Origin: Magnetospirillum moscoviense
GTDB taxonomy: Bacteria; Pseudomonadota; Alphaproteobacteria; Rhodospirillales; Magnetospirillaceae
Direction of reading: 5' to 3'
DNA: 64,000 nt
Assembly: GCF_001650635.1 (NCBI RefSeq)
Contig: NZ_LWQU01000152.1
Location: 1 to 64,000, forward strand
Below, one piece after another: positions 44,847 to 47,849 of this stretch (position 1 is its first letter; each line of letters starts with the position of its first letter). The position numbers and the translations under genes were made by a program. The notes under the pieces were generated by a model. That model saw only the letters and a program-made list of their open reading frames with translations, made no database searches and had not been told where the DNA came from.

Positions 44847-45113
44847 AAGGGGGACGCCGTTGGGGCGGCGTCCCCCTTCATATTCCGCCCCGGGATCTGG
44901 GGTTCGGGGATTGATCCCGCGGCGGAAAGGTACGAGGGAGAGCGTTTTGGGGACCACTCTCCCTCTGGACTGACCAGCGATGCTGGGGTTCGGGGACGTA
45001 CCGCCGATCAGTCCATTCCTATTCGGTTGAACGAGAGGGACCCCGTTGGGGGACGAGATCCCTCTCTATCGACCCTTGCGCGGCACTGGGGTTCGGGGAC
45101 GGCCGCGCCAGGG
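44847..45113. repeat. array of six alternating stem-loops with conserved G-rich loops
   Basis: Six hairpins in a row between convergent genes. A-type: 44847-44878 (13-bp perfect stem, loop TTGGGG), 44934-44965 (9 bp, loop includes GTTTTGGGGA), 45033-45066 (8 bp, loop includes CCGTTGGGGGA). B-type: 44883-44927 (14 of 15 bp), 44967-45014 (imperfect, ~12 bp), 45073-45113 (7+4 bp); all three B loops carry the identical 14 bases CTGGGGTTCGGGGA at 44897, 44983 and 45086. Stem sequences differ from copy to copy but still pair. The first hairpin could end the chemoreceptor transcript, though there is no T-run. Strand and function are unknown; a structured RNA is the likeliest explanation. Confidence 0.85.
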
Positions 45114-45132
45114 GCGATTCGAAGTCGAAAAC

Positions 45133-46941
45133 TCACGCGGCCTGCGCGTCCCGTCCCTCCTGCTTGCACCGAACGGTCATCGGCAAGGTGAACAAGAACG
45201 TGCTGCCTTCACCCGGGACCGATTCGACCCAGATGTGCCCGCCCAGGTGCTCGACGATCCGCCGCGCCGTAGCCAGGCCGATTCCGGTACCGTCTTGACC
45301 GTCAAGGCCGCGCAGGCGATGGAAAATCTCGAACAGACGGATGCGGGCCGATTCCTCGATGCCGATGCCGTTGTCGCGCACCGCGAAGGTGGCGACCCGG
45401 CCGTCATCCTTGGCCGAGACCTCGATCATCGCCGGCCGACCGGGACAGCTGTAGCGCACCGCGTTGTCCAGCAATTGCGTGAAGATTTCCGTCAGGCTGC
45501 GGTCGTCGGCGGCCACGTCGGGCAGGCGGCCGACCTTGACCATGGCGGACTTCTCCCGCAGCGGCTCGGCCAAGCGCTCGGTCGCGGCGGTGACGGCGCC
45601 TCCGGCCGACGTCAGGGCATCGACCTCGGGCAGATGGTCCACCGCGACATAGGCTTCCAGGTCGCTGACCAGCTTGCGCATGCGTTGGGCGCCGGCGACC
45701 ACTTGGGCGACATAGTCACGCCCTTCGGCGTCGAGCGCGTTCTCGGCATGCTTGGCCAACAGCTGGGTATAGGCGACCACCCGACGCAGCGGCTCTTGCA
45801 GGTCGTGGGCGGCGACCTCGGCGATGCGTTCCAGGTCGGCGACATAACGCTTCAGGCGCTCGCGACTGGCGACCAGTTCGGCCTTCTTGCTGGCCAGGGC
45901 GCGGGTGGTCAGTTCCTGGCGGTGCACCAGCCGGTAAAGCAGCGCCAAGGCCGCCCCCATGGCGACGGTCAGCAACATTCCCGAAACGATGTCGTCGAAC
46001 AAGGTGTCGGCATGGGATGCCAAGACGTCGTCGATCGAGCGCCCCACCACCACCGCCATCGGCTGCTCGGTCAGCGTCCGGTAGCCGAGCAGACGCACCG
46101 TCTCGCCCAGGAAGCCCGGAGCCCGGATCGATCCGACCCGGCTGTCGAATATCTGCTCGATCAAGGCCTGGTCGGCGACGCGACCGCCGATCTGCGGCTT
46201 GCCGGACGAGATGGCCGCCCGGATCACCCCGTCACGCCCGACCAGCGCCACCGCGCCGTTCGGCCCGACATCGATCGAGCGATAGATTTCGGTCAGATAG
46301 GACGGGTCCAGCGACACCACCAGCACCCCGGCCAGGCCGCCATCGGGGCGGTCGAGACGCCGGGTCAGCTGGATCGACCACTTGCCCGAGGTCCGCCCCT
46401 GGACCGGCTTGCTGATGAACAGCGTCGAATTGGGCACCAGATGGACCTGGAAATGTTCGCGATCGGCCAGGTTGACCGGGGCAAATCCCGGTGTGGTCGA
46501 ATCCTTGAGCATGCCACGGGCGTCGAGCAGCGATATCTGCAAGGCGATTCCACGGGCGGCGGCCACGTAGCCGACGGCGGCATTCAGGCTGAATTTGTCG
46601 GGATCACGCTGGTACTCGGCCTTCAGCACCAAGAGCGTCTGGTCCAGGCCGGCAATGGTCCGCTGCAGATGGGCGTCCAGCACCTGCGCCAGGTTGGACA
46701 CGCCGGTCGCGGCATCGACCAGAACCCTGGTCCGCTCGCGCCCGATATGCCAGGCGATGCAGCCCCACAGAACCGCGATCACCGCCAAGCCGAAGACGAT
46801 GACCGAACGGCCGGCGTCGAAACTGAACGCGCGGCTCAGGTTAGGCAGCGATGACGGGGGCTGTGGCGCGATCACGACAAGAGCCAGTAAGTGGAGGCCG
46901 CCGCCCTGTGTCCGGCCCTGTCGGCACGACACTGCGCCCAT
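45133..46941 (-). CDS. membrane sensor histidine kinase (Cache-HisKA-HATPase)
   Basis: 602 residues; the ATG at 46941 has only a weak TTTGGG upstream and a start near 46875 is possible. Membrane helix ~46-65, periplasmic double-Cache-type domain (ADREHFQVHLVPNSTLFISK, GPNGAVALVGRDGVIRAA), second helix ~320-340 and then a phosphorylation site AAHDLQEPLRRVVAYTQLL and an ATPase with QLLDNAVRYSCPG, VRDNGIGI and GTGIGLATARRIVEH. Divergent from the OmpR-type regulator at 47139, which is its most likely partner by position. Confidence 0.9.
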   Translation of the reverse strand: MGAVSCRQGRTQGGGLHLLALVVIAPQPPSSLPNLSRAFSFDAGRSVIVFGLAVIAVLWGCIAWHIGRERTRVLVDAATGVSNLAQVLDAHLQRTIAGLDQTLLVLKAEYQRDPDKFSLNAAVGYVAAARGIALQISLLDARGMLKDSTTPGFAPVNLADREHFQVHLVPNSTLFISKPVQGRTSGKWSIQLTRRLDRPDGGLAGVLVVSLDPSYLTEIYRSIDVGPNGAVALVGRDGVIRAAISSGKPQIGGRVADQALIEQIFDSRVGSIRAPGFLGETVRLLGYRTLTEQPMAVVVGRSIDDVLASHADTLFDDIVSGMLLTVAMGAALALLYRLVHRQELTTRALASKKAELVASRERLKRYVADLERIAEVAAHDLQEPLRRVVAYTQLLAKHAENALDAEGRDYVAQVVAGAQRMRKLVSDLEAYVAVDHLPEVDALTSAGGAVTAATERLAEPLREKSAMVKVGRLPDVAADDRSLTEIFTQLLDNAVRYSCPGRPAMIEVSAKDDGRVATFAVRDNGIGIEESARIRLFEIFHRLRGLDGQDGTGIGLATARRIVEHLGGHIWVESVPGEGSTFLFTLPMTVRCKQEGRDAQAA

Positions 46942-47138
46942 CCCAAAGCGGCGGCGGCCAACTCGGAATTATCGATCGACTGAGACACAACCGGTGAGAG
47001 GACCGAAGCCAACACTTGCAAACTCTCCTGTATTGGGATTGTTTATACTTCTTGGTGATCAATGGAGTTACGGCTCTAGGTGAAACTTCCACAAACCCAC
47101 ATTGAATGAATTGTAAACAGCCGACGGGAGTCCCCTTA

Positions 47139-47838
47139 GTGCCCGGTCCCAATAAAGCCCACATCCTGATCGTCGAGGACGAACCGGTCACCCGGACCAA
47201 GCTGGCCGCCCAGTTGGTCGCCGAGGGTTTCCAGGTCTCGGAAGCGGCCGATGCCCGCGACATGCGCGCGATCGTGTCACGCACGGTTCCCGACGTGGTG
47301 TTGCTGGATATCAATCTGCCCGACGAAAGCGGCTTGATCCTGGCCCGCGACCTGCGGTCGAAATCGTCGGTGGGGATCATCCTGGTCACCGCGCGCCAGG
47401 ACGAGACCGACCGCATCGTCGGCCTGGAACTGGGCGCCGACGACTACATCACCAAGCCGTTCAATCCGCGGGAATTGGCGGTCAGGGTGCGCAACCTGAT
47501 CCGGCGGGTCGCGCCCAGCATGGCTGCCGAGCGCCAGGCCACCGGCATCTTCACCTTCGCCGGCTGGAAGCTGGATTGTGACGCCCGGCAATTGCTGTCG
47601 CCCACCAACGAATCGGTGCGGCTGACCCGGGGCGAGTTCGACGTGCTGACCGCGCTGGCCCGCAATGCCGGCCGGGCGCTCAGCCGCGACCAATTGCTCG
47701 ACCTGACCCAGCATGACGGCGAAGCGGTGATCGACCGCACCATCGACGTGCTGGTCGGACGGTTACGGCGCAAGATCGAGGCCGACCCCAAGCGGCCGGC
47801 GATCATCGTCACCGTTCACGGCATCGGCTATCGCCTGA

Positions 47839-47849
<11 letters not shown>
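47139..47849 (+). CDS. OmpR-family response regulator
   Basis: About 236 residues from a GTG at 47139 with GGGAG nine bases upstream; an ATG at 47106 lacks this. Receiver domain with HILIVEDEPVTRTKL, phospho-acceptor Asp in VVLLDINLPDESG and Lys in YITKPFNPREL. The C-terminal winged helix is of the OmpR/PhoB type (SVRLTRGEFDVLTALARN, IDRTIDVLVGRLRRKIE, ITVHGIGYRL). It resembles the TorR/ArcA branch. Divergent from a Cache kinase and convergent, with an 11-base overlap, with a hybrid kinase. Confidence 0.93.

Follow-up and report, generated by a model that had tools for sequence, protein, structure and literature searches.

The hairpin array and its genes

The window analysed in this study is the whole stretch of 64,000 nucleotides of Magnetospirillum moscoviense DNA (contig NZ_LWQU01000152.1, positions 1 to 64,000). 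It contains, at 44847-45118, six hairpins in the plus-strand order A1 B1 A2 B2 A3 B3, lying between a chemoreceptor gene, whose product comprises sCache_2, HAMP and MCPsignal domains (Pfam), and a convergent histidine kinase gene (Table 1). Sequence and inverted-repeat search thus confirm the three A/B hairpin pairs that the original prediction had placed between these two genes. The identity over 14 bases that it had claimed for the B loops is exact in all three copies: the 14-mer CTGGGGTTCGGGGA is found at 44897, 44983 and 45086, while the rest of the genome contains no exact match, and three one-mismatch matches lie outside the array. The claim that the stems are unrelated and still pair is borne out by the inverted-repeat arms, with one correction, the B3 arm extending to 45118, and GGGGA does occur in five of the six loops when these are read on the G-rich strand. 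Three pairs of the B2 stem that count as G.U on the minus strand become A/C mismatches when the plus strand is read. At the other end of the array, the A1 hairpin together with its UUUUACAUUUU tail looks like an intrinsic terminator.

Table 1. Features of the locus, ordered along the minus-strand RNA. R1 is the covariance model, described in the text, that represents a single B+A pair of hairpins.
Feature	Position	Strand	Description and evidence
OmpR-family response regulator, TorR/ArcA-like, divergent	47106-47849	+	Pfam, NCBIfam, synteny
TATAAA, conserved -10-like element of divergent promoter	47042-47047	-	Alignment of 25 regions upstream of the regulator
Histidine kinase (weak Cache, HisKA, HATPase_c)	45133-46941	-	Pfam; directly upstream of the RNA, same strand
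Hairpin B3, first of the RNA	45068-45118	-	Loop GUCCCCGAACCCCAG; 17-nt arms, 88% complementary; R1 match 45034-45115 covers B3 and A3
Hairpin A3	45033-45066	-	Loop CCCCCAACG; 5' arm purine-rich; spanned by one 22-nt inverted-repeat pair (77%); sequence, fold, R1
Hairpin B2	44966-45015	-	B loop as in B3, stem unrelated; 14-nt arms (86%); fold; R1 match 44935-45012
Hairpin A2	44934-44965	-	Loop CCCCAAAACG; stem of 9 bp plus one wobble, read from sequence; fold, R1
Hairpin B1	44883-44927	-	Loop AUCCCCGAACCCCAG; 15-nt arms (93%); R1 match 44848-44927
Hairpin A1, last of the RNA	44847-44878	-	Loop CCCCAA, then UUUUACAUUUU; 13-nt arms, 13 bp at 100%

The best NCBIfam match of the divergent regulator is TorR, with 254.6 bits, below the cut-off of 275, so that its TorR/ArcA-like assignment is one of similarity alone. 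This regulator is present in all of the 20 larger loci that were compared (84-91% identity). The kinase adjoins the array in 19 of them, at about 45-57% identity to that of the window, and the window's chemoreceptor is not a neighbour of the array in these 20 loci. At L077 the kinase is split into two pieces, with 48 and 63% identity to the window's. In 11 loci of a second genus (L078-L088) the window's kinase is matched by its C-terminal half only, and, judging from these matches, their sensor part seems either to be different or to have been swapped.

The array is linked to the regulator and separable from the kinase. At L073 (UT-4) the array is retained and the kinase is gone, except for a 27-codon frame resembling its start. 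In genome G010 no kinase lies between the regulator and the array; the latter comprises just one B+A unit, which has a U-rich tail, lies downstream of a TATAGT box and resembles an independent one-unit gene about 120 nt long. In three genomes (G034, G035 and G041) R1 finds no array, although both the regulator, at 83-85%, and a divergent kinase, 39-43% identical over part of its length, are present. These kinase-less arrays and array-less regulator/kinase loci argue that the RNA travels with the regulator, not with the kinase. A search for the regulator in 12 genomes of the family gave an 83-84% match in four (the three above and G010) and 48-54% in five others; the three second-genus genomes that have regulator and kinase and in which no array was found (L124, L125 and L126) are all near 3.8 Mb. 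Furthermore, the 25 aligned regions upstream of the regulator share a block with TATAA oriented towards the RNA, where G010 aligns poorly, and the divergent promoter would probably drive both the kinase and the RNA.

Conservation, strand and covariation of the RNA

Alignment A1, which comprises 49 of the 61 B+A units collected, near-duplicates being excluded, is the source of the covariance model R1, with 80 positions and 25 pairs. R1 was scanned against 297 genomes sampled from the order, with strict filters and the 15 best candidates scored per genome, so that weak relatives or second copies may escape. The scan returned 70 matches in 29 genomes, belonging to 4 of 111 genera, all within the family of the window, and under these filters all matches of a genome fall at one locus. 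Every one of the 13 genomes of the window's genus has the array, with three units in 12 and two in the remaining one; a second genus has it in 14 of 17 genomes, with two units each, and two further genera in one genome each, with three units in one and one unit in the other. The number of units is steady inside each genus.

Of 55 family genomes searched at the DNA level (blastn), 31 gave matches; the two weak ones, in G019 and G051, have no R1 match and were treated as chance. Across genome contigs, a paired-loop pattern selected 33 stretches, of which R1 matches 21 and none of the remaining 12; eleven of these 12 were inspected by eye and proved to be other repeats. Viral contigs were searched for a wider spread of the array, and none was found there. 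Named contigs matched by R1 include those of Magnetospirillum aberrantis, M. sulfuroxidans, Paramagnetospirillum caucaseum, P. marisnigri, P. kuznetsovii and Phaeospirillum sp. A contig labelled Stygiobacter sp. (L049, VBWB01000006.1) also bears the array, and its label looks wrong. At four loci (L010, L011, L012 and L013) a further G/C-rich hairpin repeat, resembling a dispersed repeat, adjoins the array on its terminator side, and at L022 (722-775, plus strand) the Rfam COG3860 RNA (RF02940) is found about 640 bases from the array, with 75.4 bits for a cut-off of 42.5.

The stretch of the window folds better than its dinucleotide shuffles on both strands, with z-scores of -8.2 on the minus strand versus -3.8 on the plus strand and none of 100 shuffles as good. 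The strand was determined from wobble pairs. Stems were scored with Watson-Crick pairs only, which favours neither strand, and single interior mismatches flanked by Watson-Crick pairs were counted in 98 distinct hairpins (39 B and 59 A) from 28 loci, excluding hairpins with a Watson-Crick-only score below 8, duplicates and L036. Read on the minus strand, twenty-four of these mismatches, spread across 15 loci, are G.U (A/C when the G-rich strand is read); no mismatch is G/T on the G-rich strand, and six are of other kinds. Because the genomes are related, the counts are not independent, and they could be shifted by strand-biased deamination, although a ratio of 24:0 would hardly result from it. 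Since the wobble-type interior mismatches fit the minus strand only, the RNA is that of the minus, C-rich strand, with UCCCCGAACCCCA as its B loop and CCCCAA as its A loop.

The stems covary. In an alignment fitted to R1 (70 matches, 68 of them distinct), which leans towards its own structure, 80.2% of the cells are paired against 60.3% when shuffled, and two-sided changes are seen in 424 cells, compared with 156 in shuffled alignments and no more than 168 when the structure is slid. Of five measures, the weakest counts the pairs that show a two-sided change; it gives 25 versus 22.9, and 5 of 500 shuffles did as well. An unfitted alignment points in the same direction, with 219 cells showing two-sided changes against 106 shuffled and at most 162 slid; in this alignment, 3' partners slid by one column pair slightly more cells (67.3% versus 66.4%), and RNAalifold recovered the A helix alone from the raw MAFFT alignment. 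We think that both the slid excess and the missing B helix arise from a one-base difference in register among the B stems.

The loops are near-invariant. The B loop is exactly CCCCGAACCCC in 61 of 70 units and CCCC(A/G)AACCC in 65, and its AACCC is retained in all distinct rows of the 70-unit alignment. The remaining five comprise two units of L012, in which one C is replaced by U, and the shortened third units of L022, L029 and L034. In these three related genomes, only the second half of the loop is left in the third and last B hairpin (L022 1418-1494, L029 1675-1750, L034 1370-1441), as if the unit were decaying. The A loop reads CCCCAA or CCCCCAA in 68 of 70 units. Information per column is mostly below 1 bit in the B stem and higher, up to 1.8, in the A stem. 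In seven outer pairs of the A stem (alignment A2, columns 57-63 with 86-92), the purine belongs to the 5' arm in 445 of 447 standard pairs. At the first seven 5' positions, purines make up 99.6% in the A arm versus 36% in the B 5' arm; because the A 5' arm is almost entirely purine, these A pairs change almost only by transitions, and B stems freely. In the pyrimidine-rich 3' arms of the A hairpins, CTCC (CUCC in the RNA) is found in 54 of 68 cases versus 35 in shuffles, which is suggestive of a hidden anti-Shine-Dalgarno sequence.

The original prediction had proposed selection on an RNA that presents its loops, and a covariance-model search of related genomes as the way to see it. Indeed, the search recovered conserved loci in which the stems have been replaced with pairing kept and the loops hardly vary, and we conclude that the array is genuine and represents a conserved RNA family on which selection acts.

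Relation to known RNAs

No Rfam family reached its gathering score in a scan of the whole window, in agreement with the earlier statement that no known RNA family was recognised. Below threshold, BjrC80 (RF02354) matches the array at full length on the minus strand with 44.8 bits, the gathering score being 80; on seven other loci it gave 43.5, 41.5 and 39.2 bits in three and no match at E<=0.01 in four. When 385 genomes of the class were scanned with stricter filters, one genome passed the cut-off and the window's own genome was unreported. The relative that passed (L090, 130 bits) lies downstream of a protease-like reading frame of 445 aa, which we take to be a trypsin-like protease, and shows no CCCCNAAC motif on its RNA strand. 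BjrC80 resembles the array in its several GC-rich hairpins, its C-rich loops and the CCCC of its terminator loop. Its context is different, since the L090 BjrC80 follows the protease-like frame whereas the array follows a histidine kinase. With 39.2-44.8 bits in the four matching loci against a cut-off of 80, and a differing genome context, membership of the array in BjrC80 was rejected.

The BjrC80 match of genome G021 (L015), presumably M. gryphiswaldense MSR-1, has 43.5 bits across 181 nt on the minus strand. A published table for M. gryphiswaldense lists a 'BjrC80 sRNA' of 181 nt on the minus strand with 43.4 bits, and in that table its start-site cells are blank under both conditions (PMC9549626). 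Given this agreement, the array of M. gryphiswaldense is very probably the published sub-threshold locus; the coordinates differ, presumably by assembly. In the literature that we searched, no account was found of how the loops are conserved, how the modules are built or how widely the array occurs.

RSs0680 and CcsR are the same RNAs. SmelA075 and SmelA099 of Rhizobiales, as well as RSs0680a, are described as tandem hairpins with a conserved C-rich loop, variable stems and a varying number of modules, and pairing with mRNAs has been proposed for such alphaproteobacterial multi-hairpin C-loop RNAs (PMC3927594). CcsR1-4 of Rhodobacter sphaeroides derive from an mRNA 3' UTR (PMC8625941, PMC10253847), namely that of ccaF1 (PMC8625941). 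A comparison with SmelA075/CcsR found that the array, like them, sets a conserved loop motif on several hairpins whose stems vary. However, their loop is CCUCCUCCC, an anti-Shine-Dalgarno sequence that is found in no loop of the window array, whereas the array loops are UCCCCGAACCCCA and CCCCAA. They occur in several copies per genome, whereas one array locus per genome was found (strict filters, 15 best candidates). Stress induction and processing of the transcript are further marks of the SmelA075/CcsR arrays. CcsR lies downstream of a DUF1127 gene, and the array differs further by its two alternating hairpin types and its adjoining response regulator. A paired CCTCCTCCC pattern was found in one of eight genomes searched, at L136, where R1 does not match.

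In Caulobacter, the C-rich loop of GsrN pairs with the katG leader (PMC5869019), and of the mechanisms that have been tested this one comes closest to the array. As in the array, the exposed C-rich loop is the most conserved part of GsrN, and its gene is typically located near the regulators of its own response; unlike the array, GsrN has another structure and is controlled by a general-stress sigma factor, and the available text of that source describes no tandem array (PMC5869019). The architecture of the array matches that of SmelA075/SmelA099 and CcsR1-4, and as a putative sRNA the array would be comparable to SmelA075/CcsR and GsrN, with a different loop.

Proposed function and alternatives

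Sponges of the CsrB/RsmZ type present one GGA loop motif on repeated hairpins and bind CsrA. The array likewise repeats hairpins with one loop motif, but its loops are C-rich on the selected strand, and a profile search for CsrA (PF02599) found none in the 55 genomes of the family, while 3 of 14 control genomes were positive (E. coli, B. subtilis and T. maritima). The original prediction had seen in the array a possible sponge for CsrA and had suggested looking for csrA in the genome. Such an RNA of the G-rich strand, at the 3' end of the chemoreceptor mRNA, would present GGGGA in five of its six loops. None of the 24 wobble-type mismatches fits that strand, however, CsrA was not found in the family, and the window's chemoreceptor is no neighbour of the array in the 20 larger loci. 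The proposal is refuted as stated by the strand and the absence of CsrA, and we regard it as almost certainly wrong; a G-strand transcript with another GGA reader would reopen it.

The accompanying idea, that C-rich loops on the other strand serve as anti-Shine-Dalgarno baits, named the right strand. As to the baits, the loops contain no CUCC and MSR-1 start sites use aaGGAG (PMC9549626), and therefore the loops are not anti-Shine-Dalgarno. Over 232 predicted genes, the B loop pairs at -8.50 kcal/mol upstream of starts versus -8.53 kcal/mol inside genes, a difference of +0.03 (shuffled loops +0.53 +- 0.58) that gives no clear preference for start regions. The A loop, with a difference of -0.26 (shuffled loops +0.51 +- 0.28), pairs slightly better upstream. 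This test, which used first-start gene calls, has low power, the anti-Shine-Dalgarno control itself giving -1.11 versus -0.96 +- 0.27 for its own shuffles.

We give an even chance to the reading that the array is a tandem, trans-acting sRNA whose C-rich loops pair with G-rich leaders. A small regulatory RNA would be made from the minus strand, built of tandem two-hairpin modules with UCCCCGAACCCCA as B loop and CCCCAA(A)CG as A loop, and its final A hairpin would serve as a terminator-like end. Transcription would probably start at the promoter divergent from the TorR/ArcA-like regulator and usually run through the histidine kinase gene, and the RNA may be made or processed as the 3' end of the kinase mRNA. 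By analogy with GsrN, the C-rich loops would act in trans on G-rich tracts of mRNA leaders, and the tandem copies could raise dose or valency. All these steps, from transcription and promoter use to processing, action in trans and base pairing as the task of the loops, are what we infer. The blank start-site cells of the M. gryphiswaldense table (PMC9549626) would be expected of an RNA derived from a 3' end; a lack of transcription could leave them blank as well. Outside the arrays of six genomes, the full loop complement GGGGTTCGGGG is not enriched (27 occurrences versus 36 for the reversed control), and therefore no long-pairing target stands out; one of the six shows the opposite, with 9 versus 3. 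Moreover, thirteen near-invariant loop bases exceed the need of a short seed, and a protein site fits them equally.

It is possible, if rather doubtful, that the B loop, and perhaps the A loop too, binds a protein with a preference for C-rich loops, which the array would titrate in the manner of CsrB/RsmZ with another protein. Conserved loops on free stems and several sites per RNA agree with such a decoy, as do the lack of an enriched long complement in the six genomes and the B loop's want of a clear start-region preference in the low-power test. On the other hand, there is no candidate protein, the single unit of one genome would make a poor sponge, the third B loop is shortened in three genomes, and the known alphaproteobacterial C-loop arrays are proposed to pair with mRNAs (PMC3927594). 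A more specific form, which we consider speculative and unlikely, is that UCCCCGAACCCCA is the site of a new bacterial RNA-binding protein and the array the sponge of a CsrB-like circuit wired to the TorR/ArcA-like regulator, in genomes where no CsrA was found.

The first stem begins 14 nt past the window's kinase gene on the same strand, the kinase adjoins the array in 19 of 20 larger loci and the last hairpin is terminator-like, all of which would suit an element that serves the kinase mRNA alone, by terminating it or by stabilising or localising its 3' end. We nevertheless hold this to be improbable, as arrays exist without the kinase at L073 and in G010, no array was found in three genomes that have regulator and kinase, and a terminator or stabiliser has no need of near-invariant loops in two to three copies. 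Hairpin DNA between convergent genes could also be a cruciform, a protein-bound repeat or a REP/BIME-like element. Such a DNA-level role is very improbable: the wobble asymmetry implies selection on one strand, and a single locus per genome, conserved across genera, is unlike a dispersed repeat.

The trans-acting sRNA reading and the protein decoy reading have different consequences. If the loops read mRNAs, a loop motif that is not anti-Shine-Dalgarno would join the alphaproteobacterial hairpin-array sRNAs; if they read a protein, a CsrB-like circuit would exist without CsrA. Our work turns a weak annotation in a magnetotactic model organism ('BjrC80 sRNA', with no start site) into a defined RNA family with its strand, modules, copy-number pattern and regulator linkage, and the covariance model lets this family be checked directly. 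Either way, if true, the TorR/ArcA-like regulator would have a post-transcriptional arm in bacteria that form magnetosomes in an oxygen-dependent manner.
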